Shown: piece after piece, positions 9,271-23,953 of the stretch
Position numbering within the stretch: position 1 is the stretch's first letter
How the letters are laid out: the number at the start of each line of letters is the position of its first letter
From: Novosphingobium organovorum
Lineage (GTDB): Bacteria; Pseudomonadota; Alphaproteobacteria; Sphingomonadales; Sphingomonadaceae
NCBI RefSeq assembly: GCF_022832435.1
Contig: NZ_JALHLF010000013.1
Coordinates: 662 to 64,661 of the forward strand
Direction of reading: 5' to 3'
DNA: 64,000 bases
The notes under the pieces: model-generated
What the model saw: the letters and a program-made list of their open reading frames with translations, nothing else
What the model was told of the DNA's origin: nothing
Database searches by the model: none
Made by a program: the position numbers and the translations under genes

Positions 9271-10251
9271 TCAGATCGCGCCGCCGGTCAGCCGCTGGCA
9301 GACAAGGTCGAGCTGATCGAGCGTCGCGTAGCGGATCGTCACCGTTCCCGAGCGCGGGTCGGCGTCGGCCTGAATCTTGACCGGAAGCCCGAGGAACTCC
9401 TCAAGGTGGCTTTGCACCGCGACGATATCCGCATCGTGCGCCGGATCGCGCGCGGTGCGCGCAGCGCGGCGCGGCGCGGTGTCCCCGCGCATGGTCTTGC
9501 GCACCAGCTTCTCGACATCGCGCACCGACATCTGCGCGGAAACCGCCTTTTGTGCGATCTCCTCCGCGCCCTCGCACCCGATCAGCGCACGCGCGTGGCC
9601 CATCGACAGCTCGCCCTTCTCGACCAGACGCACGACATCGTCGGGCAAAGCCAGCAGGCGCTGGAAGTTGGCGACATGGCTGCGGCTCTTGTCAACCAGA
9701 CGCGCGATTTCGGCCTGGGTCATGCCTTCGGATTCGGACAGGCGCTGATAGGCGCGCGCTTCTTCGATAGGGTTGAGATCCTCACGCTGGAGGTTCTCGA
9801 TCAGCGCAAGCGCCATGACCTCGCGATCCGACAGATCGCGCACGAGCGCCGGGATTTCGTGGAGCTGGGCCTTCTGCGCCGCGCGCCAGCGGCGTTCACC
9901 CGCGACAAGCTGGTAGCTGCCGGTATCGGTCGGACGCACGATGATCGGCTGAATCACCCCGCGCTGCGCGATCGAGGCGGCCAGTTCGTCGAGCGCTTCC
10001 TCGTCGAAGTAGCGGCGCGGCTGCTGCGGATCGGGCTTGATGTCGGCAATTGCCAGCGAACGCAGCCCTCCGGCCCGGTTGTTCGCCGCAGCGGTTCCTG
10101 TCGCTTCGCCCGAAGCGGCGGGGCTGACAGGCTCTTCGCGGCGGCTTTCGCCCAGAAGCGCGCCAAGGCCGCGCCCAAGGCCGCGATTGGGGGACTTGCG
10201 CGAAGCCGACGGACTCATCGCCGTGATGCGGGGGCCGGTGTCGTCGCTCAT
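9271..10251 (-). CDS. parB: chromosome partitioning protein ParB
   Basis: This CTP-dependent DNA clamp loads at parS and organises origin segregation. It has 326 residues: a basic N-terminus with a GRGLGALLG peptide (about 24-34) that stimulates ParA ATPase, a nuclease/CTPase-like domain with GERRWRA (118-124) and ENLQRED, a helix-turn-helix near 160-190, and a C-terminal dimer domain. The start overlaps the parA stop (ATGA), which implies translational coupling. The longer upstream frame is parA read out of frame. Confidence 0.97.
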   Translation of the reverse strand: MSDDTGPRITAMSPSASRKSPNRGLGRGLGALLGESRREEPVSPAASGEATGTAAANNRAGGLRSLAIADIKPDPQQPRRYFDEEALDELAASIAQRGVIQPIIVRPTDTGSYQLVAGERRWRAAQKAQLHEIPALVRDLSDREVMALALIENLQREDLNPIEEARAYQRLSESEGMTQAEIARLVDKSRSHVANFQRLLALPDDVVRLVEKGELSMGHARALIGCEGAEEIAQKAVSAQMSVRDVEKLVRKTMRGDTAPRRAARTARDPAHDADIVAVQSHLEEFLGLPVKIQADADPRSGTVTIRYATLDQLDLVCQRLTGGAI

Positions 10252-11024
10252 GCTGCCTTTCTCGTTTCGGGAAGCCGGGTAATCAGTTCGCGCGCCAGCG
10301 CCATGTAGGCGCGGCTGCCCGCGCAGGCGTGATCGTAGATCAGCGCCGGAACGCCATGGCTGGGCGCTTCGGACAGGCGCACGTTGCGCGGGATGTGGGT
10401 TTCGAAGATGAGCTGGCCGAGGCACGAGCGCACGTCGTCCGACACCTGATCGGTCAGACGGTTGCGGCGATCGAACATGGTGAGGACGATGCCGATGATG
10501 CCCAGATCCGGGTTGAAGCGCTGCTGGACGCGTTCGACCGTAGTGAGCAGCTGGCTCAGCCCTTCCAGCGCGAAGAACTCGCACTGCAGCGGGACGAGCA
10601 GCTTGTCGGCGGCGGTCAGTGCGTTGAGGGTAAGCAGGCCGAGCGAAGGCGGGCAGTCGATCAGGCAGACGTCGTAGCCCGAATCGTCGCGCAGCGCGTT
10701 GCGCAGGCGGTGGGCGCGGTCGTCGGCGTTGACCAGTTCGACCTCGGCGCCCGACAGGTCGACCGTCGCCGCGAGCAGGTCGAGGCCGGGGATCGAGGTC
10801 GGCACCACACAGTCGGCGACGGCCTTCTTGTCGACGAGAACGTCGTAGGAAGAGAAGGCGCGGTCGGCCGGATAGACGCCGATCCCGGTCGAGGCGTTGC
10901 CCTGCGGATCAAGGTCGATAAGCAGGGTTTTCCACCCCGTCGCGGCAAGCGCGGTGGCAACGTTGATGGCCGTCGTGGTCTTTCCGACGCCACCCTTCTG
11001 GTTGGCGATAGCAATACGGATCAC
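10248..11024 (-). CDS. parA: chromosome partitioning ATPase ParA
   Basis: This 258-residue deviant-Walker ATPase moves ParB-bound origins by nucleotide-dependent DNA binding. The Walker A is KGGVGKTT (about residues 10-17), with the family LIDCPPSLG and DLDPQGN motifs. It starts 6 bp after rsmG and ends in an ATGA overlap with parB. The operon order mnmG-rsmG-parA-parB is the usual one near alphaproteobacterial origins. Confidence 0.98.
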   Translation of the reverse strand: MIRIAIANQKGGVGKTTTAINVATALAATGWKTLLIDLDPQGNASTGIGVYPADRAFSSYDVLVDKKAVADCVVPTSIPGLDLLAATVDLSGAEVELVNADDRAHRLRNALRDDSGYDVCLIDCPPSLGLLTLNALTAADKLLVPLQCEFFALEGLSQLLTTVERVQQRFNPDLGIIGIVLTMFDRRNRLTDQVSDDVRSCLGQLIFETHIPRNVRLSEAPSHGVPALIYDHACAGSRAYMALARELITRLPETRKAA

Positions 11025-11030
11025 GTGGTC

Positions 11031-11663
11031 TTACCCCTTCCTGCCGGTCAGCGTACCGACAATGATGCCTGCTTGCGGGTCCGTCAGGGACTGTTCCACG
11101 TGGAACACGTGCCGCCACTTGCGAAGGTCTTCCAATTCTTGCTTTGCCGAACGGCCCTTGGGCAACACCCAGCGGGTGTCACTTGTGGAAAATCGCGAGG
11201 ATAACTCAAGAAGTCTTTGCAGCGGCGCAAAGGCACGCGCTGAAATGACCGCGGCGTGACACGAATCGACCAGTTCGAGCCGCCGCCCTTCCACCCGTGC
11301 CCGGTCGAGCCCCATGGCGAGTCGCGCACGGTCGAGCCATTCGATGCGCCGGGCGCGCGATTCGACCATGACCACTTCGAGATCGGGCCGCAGCGCGGCG
11401 ATCACCAGACCGGGGAATCCGGCTCCAGTGCCCAGATCGAACCAGGCCCCGCTTGTTTCACGTGGAACATGGGCGAGCAGCTGCGCCGAATCGACAATGT
11501 GGCGGAGCCAGACCTGATCGAGGCTGGCGGCCGAGACGAGGTTCTGCTGCTGGTTCTCCTGCCCCAGCATCGCAACCAGCGTGTCCAGGCGTTGGGCTGC
11601 TTCGGGGGTGTATTCGGGGCGCTGTTCAAGCCAGGCACGCGCCTCGGTTTCAGTGGTAATCAT
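11031..11663 (-). CDS. rsmG: 16S rRNA (guanine-N7)-methyltransferase RsmG
   Basis: The enzyme methylates G527 of 16S rRNA using S-adenosylmethionine. The 210-residue Rossmann methyltransferase has motif I at about 75-86 ([12 protein letters not shown]). The start overlaps the mnmG stop (ATGA). Two parS-like sites fall inside the gene and are read as HVFHVEQ and HVPRET. The C-terminal parS lies close to the parA start. Confidence 0.96.
11092..11107. promoter_or_regulatory. parS site 1 (inside rsmG)
   Basis: TGTTCCACGTGGAACA is a perfect 16-bp palindrome matching the universal chromosomal parS consensus. It lies 68 bp upstream of the parA start, within the 3' part of rsmG. Confidence 0.95.
11454..11469. 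promoter_or_regulatory. parS site 2 (inside rsmG)
   Basis: TGTTTCACGTGGAACA has one asymmetric position relative to the perfect palindrome and is within the accepted parS consensus. It is encoded in rsmG about 350 bp from site 1. Confidence 0.95.
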
Positions 11664-13558: not shown

Positions 13559-13574
13559 TGTTCCACGTGAAACA
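13559..13574. promoter_or_regulatory. parS site 3 (mnmG-mnmE intergenic)
   Basis: TGTTCCACGTGAAACA matches the parS consensus. This is the only one of the seven candidates lying outside coding sequence, 49 bp upstream of the mnmG start. Confidence 0.95.
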
Positions 13575-13591: not shown

Positions 13592-14896
13592 TCATTTGCC
13601 GATGCAGAAACGTCCGAACAGCGCATCGAGCATGTCCTCGGTCGTCGTCCGGCCGATCAGGGTATCGAACGCAACCCGCGTCACGCGCAGCTCTTCGGCC
13701 AGCAGCAGCGGATCGCGCTGGCCCTGCGCGCGGGCCAGAGCCACGCGCGCACGGCCAAGGAGATCGGCCTGACGCCGGTTGATCGCCACGTCTCCCGGAC
13801 GCGGCAGGCGATCGCGACCGAACGCGACAAGCGCGTCGCGCAAGACGTCGAGCCCCTCCCCCGTCTGCGCCGACACCCGGTGAAGCGGAGCGCGCTTGCG
13901 CGCCACATCACCGCGATCGATCTGCGCGTCGATTTCCCAGGTCCCAACGGGTCCCTCGCCCTCGGGCCCGAGCCAGAGCACGAGATCGGCCCGGTCGAGT
14001 TCACCCCGTGCACGGTCGATGCCGATCGCCTCGATCCCGTCGGCCGTCCCCTCGCGCAGGCCCGCCGTATCGATGAAGGCAAAGGGGACGCCGCCAAGCG
14101 CCACGGTACGCACGAGGACGTCGCGCGTGGTCCCGGCCAGCGGCGCGGTGATCGCCGCCTCGTCCTCGACCAGCGCGTTAAACAAGGTGCTCTTGCCCGC
14201 GTTGGGCGGACCGGCGAGAACCACGCGCAGCCCTTCGCGCAAGGCTTCGGCGCGGGGGCGCTCGAGCCACCGGGTCAGGTCATCGGCCAGCGCGCCAAGG
14301 TCCGCGTGGAAGAGCTCGGGCAGGACCGCCACGTCGTCCTCGTCCGCAAAATCGAGAATGGCCTCAACCGCCGCCGAGGCGCTCAGCACCCGATCGCGCC
14401 AGAGCGCCACTTGCTGCGAAAAGGCGCCGCCCGCCATCGCAATCGCGGCACGGCGTTGCAGCTCGGTTTCGGCCGAAAGCAGGTCCGCCAGCCCTTCGGC
14501 CTCAGCCAGGTCAATCCGCCCATTGGCAAAGGCCCGCCGGGTGAATTCGCCCGCTTCGGCCGGGCGGATCGGATGGTCTTCGCCAAGGTCGAGCTGCCCC
14601 AGCGCCGCCTCGACCACGCGCACCACCGCGCGCCCACCGTGCAAATGCAGCTCGGCAAGATCCTCACCCGTCGCCGTGCGCGGGCCGGGAAACCACAAGA
14701 CCAGCGCCTGATCGAGCAGCGCTTCCTGCGCTGTTCCACGTGAAACACGTAAGGAGCGAAGGCTGGCCTGGCGCGGCGTGGGAAGCGTTCCGGCGAGCGC
14801 GGCAAGCGCCTTTCCGGCCGCAGGTCCGCTGATGCGGATGACGCCAAGCGCGGCAGGCGGCGCACCGCTCGACAGGGCAAAAATGGTATCGGTCAT
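13592..14896 (-). CDS. mnmE: tRNA modification GTPase MnmE (TrmE)
   Basis: This potassium-activated GTPase is the partner of MnmG. The 434-residue protein has an N-terminal formyl-THF-binding domain (about 1-115), a helical domain, an inserted G domain with P-loop GPPNAGKS at 229-236 and the GTTRDV switch, and the invariant C-terminal FCIGK with its catalytic Cys. The start was chosen at MTDTIFALSSG, the family beginning. A parS site lies inside the gene. Confidence 0.97.
   Translation of the reverse strand: MTDTIFALSSGAPPAALGVIRISGPAAGKALAALAGTLPTPRQASLRSLRVSRGTAQEALLDQALVLWFPGPRTATGEDLAELHLHGGRAVVRVVEAALGQLDLGEDHPIRPAEAGEFTRRAFANGRIDLAEAEGLADLLSAETELQRRAAIAMAGGAFSQQVALWRDRVLSASAAVEAILDFADEDDVAVLPELFHADLGALADDLTRWLERPRAEALREGLRVVLAGPPNAGKSTLFNALVEDEAAITAPLAGTTRDVLVRTVALGGVPFAFIDTAGLREGTADGIEAIGIDRARGELDRADLVLWLGPEGEGPVGTWEIDAQIDRGDVARKRAPLHRVSAQTGEGLDVLRDALVAFGRDRLPRPGDVAINRRQADLLGRARVALARAQGQRDPLLLAEELRVTRVAFDTLIGRTTTEDMLDALFGRFCIGK
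14732..14747. promoter_or_regulatory. parS site 4 (inside mnmE)
   Basis: TGTTCCACGTGAAACA is identical to the intergenic site at 13559. In the mnmE frame it encodes VSRGTA at about residues 50-56. Confidence 0.95.
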
Positions 14897-15233: not shown

Positions 15234-15432
15234 TGGGCTCTCCTCTTCGCACCGTGCCCCACGACACCCGTGCCTCTTCATATCCGACTTGCAACCAAGG
15301 CTGACACATAGCGTTGGCAAAGTCCATGACCAGTGCCTAACCTCGGGCGGCGCATCCCAAGCGCTTCGGCCGGAACCATAAAATTGACACTGGCCGCAAC
15401 CGGATACACAGGCCGATACACAGGAGAGTGCC

Positions 15433-15516
15433 ATGGTCCCCGTTTCCCCCTTTCGGGCCTCGTCCACCGCGCGGACCGGGGCGGTCTCCCCCACCGATCG
15501 GGGAGACGCCGCGTGA
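15433..15516 (+). other. possible 27-codon leader ORF
   Basis: An ATG preceded by CAGGAGAGTGCC (a good ribosome site) opens a 27-codon frame whose TGA overlaps the GTG start of the FMN glutamate-synthase-like gene (GTGA). This arrangement is typical of translational coupling. The peptide has no recognisable family. It may instead mark a frame-shifted N-terminus or be fortuitous. Confidence 0.3.
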
Positions 15517-17111
15517 CCCGCTTCCTTCCCGGCCCGCGATACCTCGTCCCGCTGCTGATCCTGGCTCTCGTCCTTGTCGGAGCCTTCGTCCGCTGGCTTC
15601 ACTGGTCGCTGCTGATCACCTTCCCCCTGCTGCTGCTGACCGCCTGGGACTTCGTGCAGGACCGCCATGCCCTGCGTCGAAACTATCCGTTGATCGCGCG
15701 CGTTCGCTGGCTGTTCGAGGACCTTCGTCCGTTCCTGCGCGCCTATATCGTCGAGAGCGATCGCGAGGGGCGCCCCTTCACCATCGACGAACGCGCGCTG
15801 GTCTATGCCCGCGCCAAGGGCGAAGTCTCGACCCACCCGATGGGCACCGAACTCGACGTCTATTCAGACGAGTACGAATGGCTCGGCCACTCGATCGCCC
15901 CCAATGAAAAAGCACCGGACTCATGGCACGTTCGCGTGGGCAGCGACCACTGCGCGCAGCCTTACGACACCGCGCTCCTCAACATTTCGGCGATGAGTTT
16001 CGGAGCGCTTTCGGCCAACGCGATCGAGGCGCTCAACAAGGGGGCGGCGATCGGCGGCTTCGCGCACGACACCGGCGAAGGCTCGATCAGCCGCTACCAC
16101 CGCAAGCACGGCGGCGACCTAATCTGGGAACTGGGCAGCGGCTACTTCGGGTGCCGCAACAAGGACGGCTCGTTCAACCCCGAGCTGTTCGCCGAGCAGG
16201 CGCAGGACGACCAGGTCAAGATGGTCGAGATCAAGCTCAGCCAGGGGGCCAAGCCGGGGCACGGCGGCGTGCTGCCCGGCGCCAAGGTCACCCCCGAGAT
16301 CGCCGACGCGCGCAAGGTCGACATCGGCGAGGATTGCATCTCGCCCGCCGCGCACCCCGCCTTTTCGACCCCGATCGAACTGCTCGAATTCGTCCAGCGG
16401 CTGCGCGAACTTTCGGGCGGCAAGCCGGCCGGATTCAAGCTGTGCGTGGGCCAACCGCACGAGGTCATGGCGCTGATGAAGGCGATGATCGACACCGGCA
16501 TCACCCCCGACTTCATCGTTGTCGACGGGGCCGAAGGGGGCACCGGCGCCGCGCCGCAGGAACTGACCGACAATGTGGGAATGCCCTTGCGCGAAGGGCT
16601 GATCCTGATGCGCAACGCGCTTGTCGGCACCAATCTCAAGGATCGCATCCGGCTCGGCGCTTCGGGCAAGATCCATTCGGGCGCGGGAATGGCGCGCGCC
16701 TTTGCGCTGGGGGCCGACTGGTGCAACGCGGCGCGCCCCTTCATGTTCGCGCTGGGCTGCGTCCAGTCGATGAAGTGCCACACCGGCAACTGCCCGACCG
16801 GCGTCGCGACACAGAGCGAATGGCGCCAGCGCGGCCTCGTGGTCGACGACAAGGCCGAACGTGTTGCCCGCTTCCAGAAGGAGACGCTCCACGCGCTGCG
16901 CGAAATCGTCGTCGCGATGGGCTACCGCAGCCCCTGGGAACTGACCCAGCACGACATGTACCAGCGCATCGATAGCGCCAAGGCCGGAGCGCTCGACGAG
17001 GTTTATCGCTTTCTCAAGCCCGGCCAACTGCTGGCCGATCCCGACAGCACGCACTATGCCCGCGCCTGGCGCGTGGCGAACGCGGAATCGTTTCGCCGCG
17101 TTGCGCGGTAA
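15513..17111 (+). CDS. FMN-binding glutamate synthase-like protein
   Basis: This 532-residue protein has two N-terminal membrane segments (about residues 8-45), then a complete GltS FMN-binding barrel. The barrel includes ISAMSFGALS, KLSQGAKPGHGG, VDGAEGGTGAAP and the GCVQSMKCHTGNCPTGVATQ region with the Fe-S cysteines. The glutaminase domain of glutamate synthase is absent, so the true reaction is uncertain. It starts with GTG after GGGGAGACGCCGC. Confidence 0.85.
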   Translation: MTRFLPGPRYLVPLLILALVLVGAFVRWLHWSLLITFPLLLLTAWDFVQDRHALRRNYPLIARVRWLFEDLRPFLRAYIVESDREGRPFTIDERALVYARAKGEVSTHPMGTELDVYSDEYEWLGHSIAPNEKAPDSWHVRVGSDHCAQPYDTALLNISAMSFGALSANAIEALNKGAAIGGFAHDTGEGSISRYHRKHGGDLIWELGSGYFGCRNKDGSFNPELFAEQAQDDQVKMVEIKLSQGAKPGHGGVLPGAKVTPEIADARKVDIGEDCISPAAHPAFSTPIELLEFVQRLRELSGGKPAGFKLCVGQPHEVMALMKAMIDTGITPDFIVVDGAEGGTGAAPQELTDNVGMPLREGLILMRNALVGTNLKDRIRLGASGKIHSGAGMARAFALGADWCNAARPFMFALGCVQSMKCHTGNCPTGVATQSEWRQRGLVVDDKAERVARFQKETLHALREIVVAMGYRSPWELTQHDMYQRIDSAKAGALDEVYRFLKPGQLLADPDSTHYARAWRVANAESFRRVAR

Positions 17112-17154
17112 AGACCCCCCTTCTCCACTTTCCAGGACTACGACAGGACAGAGC

Positions 17155-18129
17155 ATGGCAACCGGATACCGCATGATCGTCGCCGAGCATGGTGGCCCCG
17201 AAAAGGTTTCACGTGAAACATTCGAAGTCCCCACACCCGGCCCCGGCCAGATCCTGATCGAGACCGAAGCGGTCGGCCTCAACTTCATCGACACCTATTA
17301 CCGCAAGGGGCTCTATCCCGATGCGCTGCCAATCGTGCTCGGTTCGGAGAGCGTGGGGCGCATCGTGGAGCTGGGTGACGGGACCGAGGGGTTCAGTGTG
17401 GGGGAACGCATCGGCTACACCGGCAACGGCGGCGCCTACGCGACGCACCGGCTGATCCCCGCCGACGGCGCGCTGCGCGTGCCCGACGCGATCGATCCGA
17501 TGATTGCCGCCGCAGTCCTGCTCAAGGGGCTGACCGCGTGCTACCTCGCCGAAGATACCTTCCCGGCCAAGGCGGGCGACGTCGCACTGGTCCACGCCGC
17601 GGCGGGCGGGGTCGGCTCGCTGCTCGTGCCCTGGCTCACCGACAAGGGCGTCACCGTGATCGCGCACTGCGGCAGCGCCGAGAAGGCGGCCACGGTGCCG
17701 ACCGACCATGCACTGTCGGGCCCGTTCGCCACTCTGCCCGAACAGGTCGCGGCGATCACCGGCGGAGCGATGTGCCATGTCGTCTACGACGGCGTTGGCA
17801 AGGACAGTTGGAACGCCTCGCTCGCCTGCTTGCGCGCGCGGGGGCTGATGGTCAGCTTCGGCAACGCCTCGGGTGCGGTAGAGCCCTTCCCCGTGCTCGA
17901 CCTGATGCGCAGCGGAGGTGGCTCGCTCTACGCCACGCGCCCCACCCTCGCCCACTACATCGCCACTCCCGAGACGCGCGATGCCGCCTGCGCCAAGCTG
18001 TTCGCACGGATCGCAAGCGGCGTGCTCACCCCGCAGATCGGGCAGACCTTCGCGCTGGACGATGCGGCCGAGGCGCACCGCGCGCTCGAAAGCCGGGCAA
18101 CCACGGGATCGACCGTGCTGATCCCCTGA
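17155..18129 (+). CDS. NADPH:quinone oxidoreductase (zeta-crystallin family)
   Basis: This 324-residue zinc-free MDR enzyme has a GroES-like N-terminal half (GLNFIDTYYRKGLYP is the quinone-reductase signature). A Rossmann domain with HAAAGGVGSLL near 145-155 follows. It is predicted to reduce quinones with NADPH in the cytosol. It follows the FMN protein by 43 bp on the same strand. A parS-like site near the 5' end encodes KVSRETFE. A strong terminator follows. Confidence 0.93.
   Translation: MATGYRMIVAEHGGPEKVSRETFEVPTPGPGQILIETEAVGLNFIDTYYRKGLYPDALPIVLGSESVGRIVELGDGTEGFSVGERIGYTGNGGAYATHRLIPADGALRVPDAIDPMIAAAVLLKGLTACYLAEDTFPAKAGDVALVHAAAGGVGSLLVPWLTDKGVTVIAHCGSAEKAATVPTDHALSGPFATLPEQVAAITGGAMCHVVYDGVGKDSWNASLACLRARGLMVSFGNASGAVEPFPVLDLMRSGGGSLYATRPTLAHYIATPETRDAACAKLFARIASGVLTPQIGQTFALDDAAEAHRALESRATTGSTVLIP
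17205..17220. promoter_or_regulatory. parS-like site 5 (inside quinone oxidoreductase gene)
   Basis: GGTTTCACGTGAAACA has a perfect 14-bp core palindrome and differs from consensus only at the outermost base. It lies about 5 kb from the putative oriC. Confidence 0.85.
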
Positions 18130-18976: not shown

Positions 18977-20233
18977 TTACTGGTTCATCGTCGCGAAGAA
19001 GTCCTCGTTGCTCTTGGAGTCCTTCATCTTGTCGAGCAGGAACTCCATCGCATCGACGGTGCCCATCTGCATGAGGATGCGGCGCAGCAGCCACATCTTG
19101 GAGAGCTGATCCTTGGGAACCAGCAGCTCTTCCTTGCGGGTGCCCGACTTGCCCACGTCGAGCGCGGGGAAGATGCGCTTGTCCGCGACCTTGCGGTCGA
19201 GCACGATTTCCGAGTTACCGGTGCCCTTGAACTCTTCGAAGATGACTTCGTCCATGCGGCTGCCGGTGTCGATCAGCGCGGTGGCGATGATCGAGAGCGA
19301 ACCGCCCTCCTCGATGTTGCGCGCCGCACCGAAGAAGCGCTTGGGACGCTGCAGGGCGTTGGCGTCGACACCGCCGGTCAGCACCTTGCCGGAGCTCGGC
19401 ACCACGGTGTTGTAGGCGCGGCCCAGACGGGTGATCGAGTCGAGCAGGATGACCACGTCGCGCTTGTGTTCGACAAGGCGCTTGGCCTTCTCGATCACCA
19501 TTTCGGCGACCTGGACGTGGCGCTGCGCGGGTTCGTCGAAGGTCGAGGAAATGACCTCGCCCTTGACCGAGCGCTGCATGTCGGTGACTTCCTCGGGGCG
19601 TTCGTCGACCAGCAGGACGAGCAGGAACACCTCGGGGTGGTTGTCGGTGATGGCCTTGGCCATGTTCTGCAGCAGCACCGTCTTACCGGTACGCGGCGGT
19701 GCGACGATCAGCGCGCGCTGGCCCTTGCCCTGCGGGCTGATGAGATCGATCACGCGGGCCGACTTGTCCTTGACGGTCGGGTCGAGGGTGTCGAGCTTGA
19801 GGCGCTCTTCGGGATAGAGCGGGGTGAGGTTGTCGAAGTTGGTGCGGTGGCGCACGGCGTCGGGATCATCAAAGTTGACCTTGGTCAGCTTGGTGATCGC
19901 GAAGTAGCGCTCGCCGTCGCGCGGGGCGCGGATTTCGCCTTCGACGGTGTCCCCTGTGCGCAGGCCCCACTTGCGGACCTGGTTGGGCGATACGTAGATG
20001 TCGTCGGGCCCGGCGAGGTAGTTCGCCTCGGGGCTGCGCAGGAAGCCGAAACCGTCGGGCAGCACTTCGATCGTGCCAAGGCCCATGATCTCTTCGCCGT
20101 CCTCGGCGACTTCCTTCAGGATTCCGAACATGAGATCCTGGCGGCGCATCGTCGAAGCGCCTTCGACGCCCAGATCCTCGGCCATTTCGACCAGTTCGGC
20201 CGGCGTTTTTTTCTTGAGTTCTTTCAGATGCAT
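18977..20233 (-). CDS. rho: transcription termination factor Rho
   Basis: This hexameric RNA helicase carries out factor-dependent termination. It has 418 residues: an N-terminal helical domain, a cold-shock RNA-binding fold (GFGFLRSP at 61-68), P-loop APPRTGKT (178-185), [14 protein letters not shown], and the Q/R-loop region near [16 protein letters not shown]. The start [11 protein letters not shown] is the family N-terminus. rho-hemJ-hemE beside the origin is the alphaproteobacterial order. Confidence 0.98.
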
Positions 20234-21059: not shown

Positions 21060-22088
21060 TCAGGGGCGAGTCCAGCCCCTGACGGCCGCGAGAAGCCGTT
21101 CCACATGGGCAATCGGGGTATGCTGGCCAATACCGTGGCCGAGATTGAACACATGGGGCCGCCCGGCGAAGGCATCAAGCACGCGGATCGCTTGGCGTTC
21201 GAGGTCCTCGCTGCCCGCCAGCACCAGCAGGGGATCGAAATTGCCCTGCACAGGCATACCCTCGGGCAATTCGCGCGCGGCCCATAGCGGGTCGATGGTT
21301 TCATCCACGCCCACCGCATCGACGCGGGTCTCACGGGCATAGGCGGCTAGCTTTTCGCCCGCGCCCTTGGGAAAGCCGATGATCGGAGTCTGCGGATGGC
21401 GCGCGCGCACCGCCTCGACGATCCGCGCGTTGGGAGCGATGACCCAGCGTTCGAATTGCTGAGGTGAGAGCGTGCCCGCCCAGGAATCGAAGAGCTGGAC
21501 CGCTTCGGCTCCGGCCTCGATCTGCCCGCACAGATAGTCGACCGTCACCTCGGCAATCGCCTCCACGATAGCCTGAAACCCCTCGGGATCGCGATAGGCC
21601 AGCGCGCGTGTCTCGGCCTGATCGCGGCTGCCCTCGCCTGCGACCATGTAAGTGGCGACAGTCCAGGGCGATCCGGCAAAGCCGAGCATGGTGGTTTCGG
21701 GGCCGAGCTGGGCGCGCACCTTGCGCACGGTTTCGTAGATCGGAGTCAGCCGTTCAGGCACCGCCGTCAGCGCGCCCAGAGCGTTGTCCACAAGGCGTGG
21801 AGAAAGCCGGGGACCTTCTCCAGCGGTGAACGAGAGGTCCTGGCCCATCGCGAAAGGCACGATCAGAATGTCGGAAAACAGGATCGCGCCGTCGAACCCG
21901 AAGCGGCGGATGGGTTGAAGCGTGATCTCGGCCGCGGCGTCGGTGTCGTAGACCAGCGCGAGGAAGCCGCCCTTCTCAGCCCGCAAGGCCCGGTATTCAG
22001 GCAGATAGCGCCCGGCCTGGCGCATCAGCCAGATGGGGCGTTCTTGCGTGTTCGTGCCGCGCAAAGTGTCGAGAAGGAGGCCTGGCAT
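21060..22088 (-). CDS. hemE: uroporphyrinogen decarboxylase HemE
   Basis: The enzyme decarboxylates uroporphyrinogen III to coproporphyrinogen III. It is 342 residues long with the RQAGRYLPEYR signature (about 23-33), GFAGSPWTVA, and DSWAGTLSP. The ATG at 22088 was chosen over a TTG eight codons upstream, because the family begins with a LLDTLRG-like segment. The 5' flank is the putative origin. A TTGTCCACA DnaA-box-like site is inside the gene at 21784-21792. Confidence 0.97.
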   Translation of the reverse strand: MPGLLLDTLRGTNTQERPIWLMRQAGRYLPEYRALRAEKGGFLALVYDTDAAAEITLQPIRRFGFDGAILFSDILIVPFAMGQDLSFTAGEGPRLSPRLVDNALGALTAVPERLTPIYETVRKVRAQLGPETTMLGFAGSPWTVATYMVAGEGSRDQAETRALAYRDPEGFQAIVEAIAEVTVDYLCGQIEAGAEAVQLFDSWAGTLSPQQFERWVIAPNARIVEAVRARHPQTPIIGFPKGAGEKLAAYARETRVDAVGVDETIDPLWAARELPEGMPVQGNFDPLLVLAGSEDLERQAIRVLDAFAGRPHVFNLGHGIGQHTPIAHVERLLAAVRGWTRP

Positions 22089-22110
22089 CGCGTTCTTTTC
22101 CGTTCCGAAC

Positions 22111-22136
22111 AAAAAAATTTAGAATTTTTATAAAAG
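22111..22136. other. AT-rich tract, candidate DNA unwinding element
   Basis: Almost entirely A and T (A7TTTAGAATTTTTATAAAA), this is exceptional in a region otherwise near two-thirds GC. It sits at the hemE edge of the origin gap, beside the DnaA-box cluster. It could also include the hemE promoter. Confidence 0.6.
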
Positions 22137-22157
22137 GTTGATGGAGTCTGTTGGCCC

Positions 22158-22166
22158 TGTGGATAT
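22158..22166 (-). promoter_or_regulatory. DnaA box-like site
   Basis: TGTGGATAT reads ATATCCACA on the minus strand, one mismatch from TTATCCACA. It lies next to the AT-rich tract and overlaps the base of the nested palindrome. Confidence 0.7.
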
Positions 22167-22266
22167 CGGGGATTGGCGGGCAATGCCCGAATTGTCCCCG
22201 GATGAACAGGGCCAATGAGTCCATCCGACTCTGGATGAGTCCGGAGTCAAAGATTCATTATTCCCG

Positions 22267-22287
22267 CTGTCCACAGGGTGTGGATGG
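22267..22287. promoter_or_regulatory. two facing DnaA box-like sites
   Basis: CTGTCCACA (22267-22275) and TGTGGATGG (22279-22287, CCATCCACA on the minus strand) form a TCCACA-GGG-TGTGGA palindrome. Each differs from the consensus at two positions, as is usual for weak alphaproteobacterial boxes. Confidence 0.6.
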
Positions 22288-22388
22288 AATCTCCAGCCTG
22301 TCCAGAACCGCTGGGGAGAATCCGGTGCAGTGGGGACGAAACCAGGGGGCGAGTTGTCACCGGAGCTATCCCGTGGTTTATGGACCCG

Positions 22389-22397
22389 CTTTCCACA
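22389..22397 (+). promoter_or_regulatory. weak DnaA box-like site
   Basis: CTTTCCACA has two mismatches to TTATCCACA. It lies near the ppsR edge of the origin gap. Confidence 0.45.
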
Positions 22398-22469
22398 GGG
22401 CTATCCCTAGGGCCTGACTCACGTTCTTTGGGGTTCTCTGGGGGCAAACAAGGACGACCAAGAGCCTTT

Positions 22470-23315
22470 ATGGCGCGTTTTCACCTGCACCTCTTGTCCG
22501 ATTCCACCGGCGAAACGCTCGAGATGATCGCCAAGGCGGCGCTCGCGCAGTTCGACGATACCGAGGTCCTGCGCCACTTCTGGCCGATGGTGCGCTCGCA
22601 GCAGCATCTCGACCGGATCATGGGGGAGATCGCCTCCAATCCGGGGCTCGTCTTCTTCACCTTGGTCAACGAGGAAACCCGCAGCCGGCTCGAAGAGCGG
22701 TGCCAGCAGCTCGGCCTGCCCGCGATCGCGGTGCTCGACGGGGTGACCGACGCGCTCGAGGCGCTGCTCGGCCAGGAGGCCAAGGGGCGTCCCGGCCGCC
22801 AGCACCGGCTCGACGATGCCTACTTCGCGCGCGTCGATGCGATCCAGTTCACCATCGCCCACGATGACGGCATCGCGTGGGAAGACTGGGAAGAGGCCGA
22901 CATCATCCTTGCGGGGGTGTCGCGCACCAGCAAGACGCCGACCTCGATCTACCTCGCCAACCGCGGCTTCAAGGTGGCGAACATTCCGATCGTGCCCGAG
23001 AGCCCCCCTCCCCCCTCGCTCTACGGTCTCAAGCGGCCTTTGGTGGTCGGGCTGACCACCGCGCCCGACCGGCTCATCCAGGTGCGCCGCAACCGCCTGC
23101 TTTCGCTCAGCCAGTCGCCCGATACCGACTACGTGCAGGAAGAGAAGGTCGTCAGCGAAGTGAAATACGCGCGGCGCATGTTCGCGGACAACTCGTGGCC
23201 GGTGATCGATGTCACCCGCCGCTCGATCGAGGAAACCGCCGCGGCCGTCATCAACCTGTTCAACGAGCGCCAGGCGACCGGACGCAAGGGCCAGATCGGG
23301 CCCAAGCCGATCTGA
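22470..23315 (+). CDS. ppsR: pyruvate, phosphate dikinase regulatory protein (PPSR/DUF299)
   Basis: This bifunctional kinase/pyrophosphorylase controls PEP synthase or pyruvate phosphate dikinase. It has 281 residues: FHLHLLSDSTGETLE at the N-terminus and a P-loop-like GVSRTSKTPTS near 149-159. The start is the ATG at 22470, and the longer frame upstream runs through the origin. It is the first gene of the rightward arm, as in Caulobacter. Confidence 0.95.
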   Translation: MARFHLHLLSDSTGETLEMIAKAALAQFDDTEVLRHFWPMVRSQQHLDRIMGEIASNPGLVFFTLVNEETRSRLEERCQQLGLPAIAVLDGVTDALEALLGQEAKGRPGRQHRLDDAYFARVDAIQFTIAHDDGIAWEDWEEADIILAGVSRTSKTPTSIYLANRGFKVANIPIVPESPPPPSLYGLKRPLVVGLTTAPDRLIQVRRNRLLSLSQSPDTDYVQEEKVVSEVKYARRMFADNSWPVIDVTRRSIEETAAAVINLFNERQATGRKGQIGPKPI

Positions 23316-23368: not shown

Positions 23369-23953
23369 ATGATCGTACTTGCGTCCAAGAGCGCATCGCG
23401 CCGCGCCATGCTCGAAGCGGCCGGCATTCCCTTCACCGCGCAGCCCGCCCATGTCGACGAGCGCGCGATCGAAGCCGCGCTGGGGGATAGCGCGGCACCG
23501 GACATCGCGCTGACGCTGGCGCGGGAAAAGGCGCTGGCGGTTTCACGTGAAACACCCGGCGCGCTAGTGCTGGGCAGCGATTCGCTGGTGGTCTGCGGGG
23601 GCCAGCGCTTCGACAAGCCCGAGGATCGCGAGGCCGCCGCGCGCCACTTGCGCTTCTTTTCGGGCAAGGTGATGGAACTGCACAGCGCCGCGGCGCTTGT
23701 TCGCGATGGGGAAGTCCTCTGGGGCGAACCCGCGGTTGCCCGCCTGACCGTCGCGCCGCTCGGCGAGGCGTTCATTGCGGACTATCTCGACGACGAATGG
23801 CCCGAAGTGGCTGGCTGCGTCGGGGTGTTCCGCATCGAAGGGCGAGGGGTGCGCCTGTTCGAGGCGATCGAGGGCGACTATTTCACGATTCTGGGCATGC
23901 CCCTGCTCAAGGTACAGCAGGCGCTGCGCGCGATGGAGGTTTTGACCCGATGA
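23369..23953 (+). CDS. maf: Maf-family nucleotide pyrophosphatase
   Basis: This 194-residue Maf/YceF-type enzyme hydrolyses non-canonical or canonical nucleotides. The conserved LASKSASRRAMLEAAG opening and the SDSLVVCGG and KPEDREAAA motifs are present. Its stop overlaps the aroE start (ATGA). A parS-like site inside the gene encodes AVSRETPG. It is named by family; substrate preference is not deducible. Confidence 0.94.
   Translation: MIVLASKSASRRAMLEAAGIPFTAQPAHVDERAIEAALGDSAAPDIALTLAREKALAVSRETPGALVLGSDSLVVCGGQRFDKPEDREAAARHLRFFSGKVMELHSAAALVRDGEVLWGEPAVARLTVAPLGEAFIADYLDDEWPEVAGCVGVFRIEGRGVRLFEAIEGDYFTILGMPLLKVQQALRAMEVLTR
23539..23554. promoter_or_regulatory. parS-like site 6 (inside maf)
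   Basis: GGTTTCACGTGAAACA has the same core as site 5, about 1.1 kb right of the putative origin. It is the nearest parS candidate on the rightward arm. Confidence 0.85.

Follow-up and report, generated by a model that had tools for sequence, protein, structure and literature searches.

Two questions are raised by the intergenic gap between hemE and ppsR in the 64,000-nucleotide stretch of Novosphingobium organovorum DNA analysed here (the window): whether it is the chromosomal origin of replication, and what role a dense cluster of GANTC methylation sites plays within it. An origin was expected here, and its position sets the zero point of a draft chromosome. The conserved GANTC cluster poses a testable question for bacteria in whose origins no CtrA sites are seen, namely whether CcrM methylation times replication, as Dam does in enterobacteria, despite the Caulobacter ccrM deletion that leaves initiation undisturbed.

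The open reading frames of the window place the gap at 22089-22469 (381 bp), between the hemE start codon (ATG at 22088, minus strand) and the ppsR start codon (ATG at 22470, plus strand), bearing out with exact coordinates the 381-bp non-coding gap claimed by an earlier, sequence-only reading. HemE (21060-22088, minus strand) belongs to Pfam family URO-D (PF01208, E 2e-112), and PpsR (22470-23315, plus strand) to Kinase-PPPase (PF03618, E 9e-95), a family which we take to be the former DUF299; we equate this ppsR with the COG1806/DUF299 gene beside Caulobacter Cori. Pfam also agrees with the gene names proposed earlier, encompassing UPF0093 (hemJ), Rho and MnmE besides URO-D on the left, and Maf, shikimate dehydrogenase (aroE), CoaE and an RNase_T exonuclease (dnaQ-like) besides Kinase-PPPase on the right. 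The statement that the flanking genes point outward holds for these named genes and fails for two plus-strand open reading frames on the left, 15333-17111 and 17056-18129, which read towards the gap. These overlapping frames (15333-18129), lying against the leftward genes, resemble by eye a glutamate synthase and a quinone oxidoreductase. Left of mnmE, frames resembling mnmG, rsmG, parA and parB are recognisable by eye, the translations read as parB (within 9271-10584) and parA (10248-11024) occupying 9271-11024 on the minus strand. No RNA family is found in 21500-23000 at gathering scores.

The AT-richest 40-mer of the whole 64-kb window starts inside the gap at 22108 (80% A+T), in agreement with the A/T tract described from the letters. 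This tract beside hemE (22108-22147), which is AT-rich in aligned relatives as well, is probably the DNA-unwinding element; GC content is 0.54 in the gap versus 0.67 in the window. The perfect DnaA box TTATCCACA is absent from the entire 64-kb window. The gap contains one nonamer with a single mismatch to it (22158) and five with two mismatches (22230, 22267, 22279, 22312 and 22389); first-order surrogates of the gap contain 0.92 such near-boxes on average, and none of 2000 reaches the observed six. Four to five such nonamers had been proposed, and six are counted at two mismatches or fewer, with four at positions common to relatives, as box-like nonamers are seen by eye at the same places in the alignment. 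These four are the putative DnaA box ATATCCACA (22158-22166, minus strand, one mismatch), box-like in the Novosphingobium rows too, and three DnaA-box-like nonamers located by match scan and alignment: CTGTCCACA (22267-22275, plus strand), which reads TTGTCCACA in many relatives; CCATCCACA (22279-22287, minus strand); and CTTTCCACA (22389-22397, plus strand), replaced by ATATCCACA in many Novosphingobium rows. The weakness of the boxes, none of which equals the perfect sequence, counts against an origin. Five weak DnaA-box-like nonamers also fall in another 381-bp stretch of the window, which starts at 10824, near the parA-like and rsmG-like frames.

Conservation of the gap was assessed in 111 loci fetched by PpsR, consisting of a single locus, the top 80 among 135 confirmed matches and the top 30 among 266 genomes that gave a match; the set includes some near-duplicates, and two loci are the genome itself, leaving 109 others. 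The divergent order of hemE, gap and ppsR is kept in 108 of these 109, the exception (L052) being a contig edge 283 bp before ppsR, and gap length ranges from 297 to 395 bp among the 96 non-own rows listed. The closest named PpsR is that of Novosphingobium profundi, with 95% identity. Alignment of 31 Novosphingobium-type gaps (the window and its 30 nearest) retains, by eye, the AT tract and several sequence blocks, including GGAGTC.GTTGG, CCTGTGGAta, TGCCCGA, CGACTC, GTCAA, the pair TGTCCACAGG..TGTGGA, GTTGTCACC, CCCGTGGTTTATG and ATATCCACA. One locus from a record titled Actinobacteria bacterium (L038) carries a PpsR 83% identical, beside hemE, and is probably a mislabelled bin. Three small genomes of one genus in the same family (genus g13: L155, L158 and L163) have no detectable ppsR, and a Maf-like frame, named by eye, directly follows the hemE gap; in these three, ppsR is therefore gone and the gap retained.

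The N. organovorum draft assembly comprises 284 contigs, and whole-chromosome skew was therefore sampled in two relatives with one-piece chromosomes, G296 (NZ_CP029761.1) and G110, using 20 segments of 20 kb per chromosome. In G296, where the gap lies at 3.4766 Mb, GC skew flips from negative to positive between 3.415 and 3.610 Mb; in G110, where the gap lies at 326 kb, it does so between 255 and 420 kb. It reverts at 1.465-1.660 Mb and 1.905-2.070 Mb, respectively, about half a chromosome from the gap. One of the 40 sampled stretches, at 100 kb in G296, departs from this pattern with a near-zero value of -0.001. In the 200 kb around the gap, cumulative skew is lowest at 3,479,880 in G296, about 3 kb from the gap, and at 311,381 in G110, about 15 kb away, the latter offset being counted against oriC. 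Both distances lie inside the few tens of kilobases that had been set beforehand as the limit for this check. The 64-kb window itself has its cumulative minimum at 19,156, about 3 kb from the gap, on a broad, flat floor extending from approximately 17 to 31 kb. The dnaA gene was considered as the origin and rejected in both relatives: it lies at about 0.6 kb in each record, 434 kb (G296) and 325 kb (G110) from the gap and outside the intervals in which the skew switches. Proximity of dnaA to the origin is described as not conserved in Sphingomonadales (PMC8116508).

The parS palindrome GTTYCACGTGRAAC occurs six times in the draft, always inside the window and from 11 kb left to 1.1 kb right of the gap (11093-11106, 11455-11468, 13560-13573, 14733-14746, 17206-17219 and 23540-23553). 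All five sites in G296 lie 9-29 kb from the gap and all three in G110 lie 10-13 kb from it, and the reversed control pattern has no occurrence in eight genomes. One genome (G143) carries 32 parS-like palindromes scattered across the chromosome, where each of the seven remaining genomes searched has 2-6; the motif is therefore not a reliable marker in every genome. Gene order, gap conservation, skew in two relatives and parS clustering thus support the earlier inference of a chromosomal origin, and the gap (22089-22469) can with high probability be taken as the oriC of a Novosphingobium chromosome. The case is built on location, conservation, skew and parS, which were computed in relatives, with parS also in the draft itself.

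The location is an ordinary one, since hemE-side origins of Sphingomonadaceae are in print. In Sphingopyxis granuli TFA, as here, the origin lies near hemE in a conserved gene arrangement, with multiple DnaA boxes and a presumed unwinding element, and an origin of this type is predicted for most Sphingomonadaceae in DoriC (PMC4741004). The predicted origin of Novosphingobium sp. PP1Y is likewise near hemE, with three DnaA boxes; it is also near a DnaA gene, whereas dnaA is far from the gap in the two relatives above (PMC4059872). The earlier statement that the Caulobacter origin adjoins hemE among the same neighbours proves right, Cori being flanked by hemE and CC0001 (COG1806) and sharing with the present gap an AT-rich region and DnaA boxes (PMC1914354), the latter of low affinity in Cori (PMC4468827). 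Cori has five CtrA sites (PMC1914354), whereas the CtrA motif TTAA-N7-TTAA occurs in none of 109 sphingomonad gaps and the N. organovorum gap has no TTAA at all; an origin controlled by CtrA was accordingly rejected.

By analogy with such origins, DnaA would bind the conserved boxes at 22158, 22267, 22279 and 22389 and oligomerise towards the AT tract beside hemE, which would melt at approximately 22108-22147 and allow the helicase to be loaded; ParB on the nearby parS cluster would segregate the copied origins.

A feature absent from the sequence-only reading is a set of nine GANTC (CcrM) sites in the gap, found by motif scan at 22144, 22217, 22227, 22237, 22244, 22252, 22287, 22318 and 22416 (22144-22420 overall), five of them within 22217-22256. 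GANTC density is 23.6 per kb in the gap versus 1.9 per kb in the rest of the window (122 in 63.6 kb), corresponding to nine sites against about 0.8 expected from window density. In 268 kb sampled from the same genome (first 20 contigs, at most 20 kb each, with the ccrM promoter outside the sample), 381-bp windows hold four GANTC at most. Helical phasing of the sites was considered and rejected, as neighbour spacings concentrate at 5-12 bp with no clean 10-bp period. In an alignment of 99 non-redundant gaps the most conserved site is 22227-22231, where GANTC is present in all 83 ungapped rows (the remaining 16 rows have gaps at this site, and misfits may have been shifted into gaps by the aligner); the preceding base is C in 80 of the 83, and bases farther out vary. 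GANTC at 22144 is shared by 53 of 97 ungapped rows and at 22244 by 43 of 98, while the other six sites are lineage-specific, with GANTC in 1 to 11 of the 99 rows each.

Across 108 relatives' gaps, 592 GANTC are found versus 89 expected from flanks, a 6.6-fold enrichment. Counts per gap run from 1 to 12 among the 96 non-own rows listed, with only 1-3 in some relatives; G110 has four in its gap and a cluster of six elsewhere within 200 kb. The reach of the enrichment was followed further, with expectations taken from each locus's own flanks unless composition is stated. Nine genomes without detectable ppsR (eight of one genus, one of another) carry 51 GANTC versus 5.7 in the 400-bp stretch preceding hemE, another 32 loci from the family of N. 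organovorum carry 191 versus 22.5, and 26 genomes of other orders, chosen by best HemE scores, carry 108 versus 18.0. The ratio is 3.8 (36 versus 9.6) for 21 genomes of seven other families of the same order (f2-f8), 18 of which have fewer than three sites and four of which have none.

The genome encodes one N6_N4_Mtase-family protein, which is taken as the candidate CcrM from its conservation over the class, and GANTC methylation by CcrM is described in Sphingomonas sp. AAP5 (PMC8067484). Matches to the candidate at E <= 0.001 occur in 59 of 61 genomes in one set and in 31 of 52 in a second, where some are weak or partial. Directly before the candidate gene, ten GANTC fall within 188 bp (L114:2345-2532), and a cluster of at least four in 300 bp lies on the 5' side of ccrM at 28 of 31 loci, so that such clusters are common to the methyltransferase gene and the origin. 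In 25 genomes with no full-length-like CcrM match, 22 GANTC are present before hemE versus 24.6 expected from flanks, two of these genomes contributing only 125 and 20 bp; hemE stands beside ppsR in six of the 25, and those six have 14 versus 4.0, so the comparison is confounded. Among small genomes, a matching set of seven bearing CcrM was reduced to six when one with a cut hemE (L312) was dropped, and the summed rows give 4 GANTC versus 4.2, indicating that CcrM presence is insufficient for the cluster.

If CcrM acts here as in Caulobacter, copying of the origin would leave the nine sites, fully methylated before, in a hemimethylated state that lasts until CcrM acts late in the cycle, which would mark the origin as replicated or not replicated. 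A comparable arrangement exists at E. coli oriC, where a cluster of methylation sites turns hemimethylated after firing, the setting of Dam/SeqA sequestration. The likeness to the E. coli system (PMC2865523) lies in a methylation-site cluster at the origin, and the differences lie in the motif and the methyltransferase. A doubtful proposal, drawn from this analogy, is that the once-per-cycle brake of Sphingomonadaceae may be GANTC methylation instead of CtrA, a timer resembling Dam/SeqA that would have been built independently from CcrM. Hemimethylated GANTC between the DnaA boxes would then silence the origin until CcrM acts late in the cycle, either by recruiting a protein that reads GANTC or by affecting DnaA directly. 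In Caulobacter, origin-near CcrM sites stay hemimethylated for long, until the predivisional stage, and over-expression of CcrM leads to extra chromosome copies, as cited in PMC3973325; the same source reports that ccrM deletion leaves initiation control intact in minimal medium. The over-expression result fits a methylation brake and the deletion result does not. When CcrM was depleted in Agrobacterium, ori2 was delayed and ori1 was hardly affected (PMC11514494). Because of these CcrM results in Caulobacter and Agrobacterium, methylation timing of initiation is treated as a hypothesis.

The chances are evenly balanced that the gap is oriC and its GANTC sites serve transcription rather than replication control, as parts of GcrA/CcrM-controlled promoters of hemE or the opposite gene. 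Intergenic GANTC enrichment is described as general in alphaproteobacteria, and deletion of Caulobacter ccrM as altering transcription and not initiation (PMC3973325); the ten sites before the candidate ccrM and the promoter-like matches inside the gap point the same way. Nine sites in 270 bp, with a group of five packed into the 40 bp that separate two DnaA-box-like nonamers, would nevertheless exceed the need of one promoter, and the cluster outlives the loss of ppsR, although a hemE promoter is still compatible with that persistence.

It is improbable that the GANTC excess merely reflects intergenic base composition or shared ancestry. First-order surrogates of this gap contain 2.0 sites on average, an equally long window elsewhere matches or exceeds the gap's GANTC count at 31 of 108 loci, and for 51 CcrM-bearing loci outside the family the excess shrinks from 142 versus 30.8 (flanks) to 142 versus 68.9 (composition), or about twofold. 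However, at least nine sites occur in only 0.015% of 20000 surrogates, and the 6.6-fold enrichment over flanks contrasts with at most 3.3-fold for the seven other palindromic pentamers of equal base content, that maximum belonging to AGNCT, which partly overlaps the conserved GAGTCT. Among the 16 N-centred palindromic pentamers, GANTC enrichment is the strongest except for TANTA (69 versus 9), an excess put down to the AT tract. At 22227, moreover, the middle base varies (C in 62 rows, A in 21) while the other four letters are fixed.

An ordinary origin, correctly called, with a GANTC cluster as its one testable and possibly unreported feature, describes the gap. A comparative study of Caulobacter origins is reportedly the likely source of the remark that Cori contains GANTC. 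Within open-licence literature, no description of clustered GANTC at sphingomonad origins was found. The TFA and PP1Y accounts, in the portions available, mention no GANTC sites (PMC4741004, PMC4059872), whereas the present gap has nine; several GANTC motifs are described for the origin in Caulobacter and its near relatives (PMC3973325), and sphingomonad gaps hold up to 12.

The remaining alternative, in which the gap is only a cell-cycle-regulated divergent hemE/ppsR promoter region and the origin lies elsewhere, for example at dnaA, could draw on promoter-like elements facing both genes and on the GANTC clusters 5' of ccrM, and is very improbable given that skew minima and parS clusters sit at the gap locus rather than at dnaA and that the gap with its GANTC persists where ppsR is lost and a Maf-like frame is next.

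Within the predicted origin, the promoter-like elements are as follows. Towards hemE, a sigma-70-like match (9 of 12 positions) lies at 22284-22257, shuffles giving 0.1. Towards ppsR, TTGTC[AC]-N17-TTTAT[GC] is present in 66 of 109 gaps with a spacing of always 17 bp, and the spacer carries a conserved CCCGTGG, which is unusual for a promoter. In the window, the TTTAT belongs to a clade-specific conserved element, CCGTGGTTTAT (22371-22381, plus strand), and follows a TTGTCA by 17 bp. Nine occurrences of CCGTGGTTTAT are found in 12 genomes searched whole, eight of them in the hemE-ppsR gap; four of the 12 genomes have none, and the reversed control pattern has 16 occurrences across the same 12. 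The one ppsR-less genome searched (G190) does not have the element. A ppsR promoter seems somewhat likelier for this element than a site for an origin protein. A ppsR start at the ATG within the conserved element was also considered, its frame being open in the window; the ATG is in frame in 33 of the 60 gaps carrying GTGGTTTATG and out of frame in 27, and an internal start is therefore rejected as a general rule and possible in some relatives.
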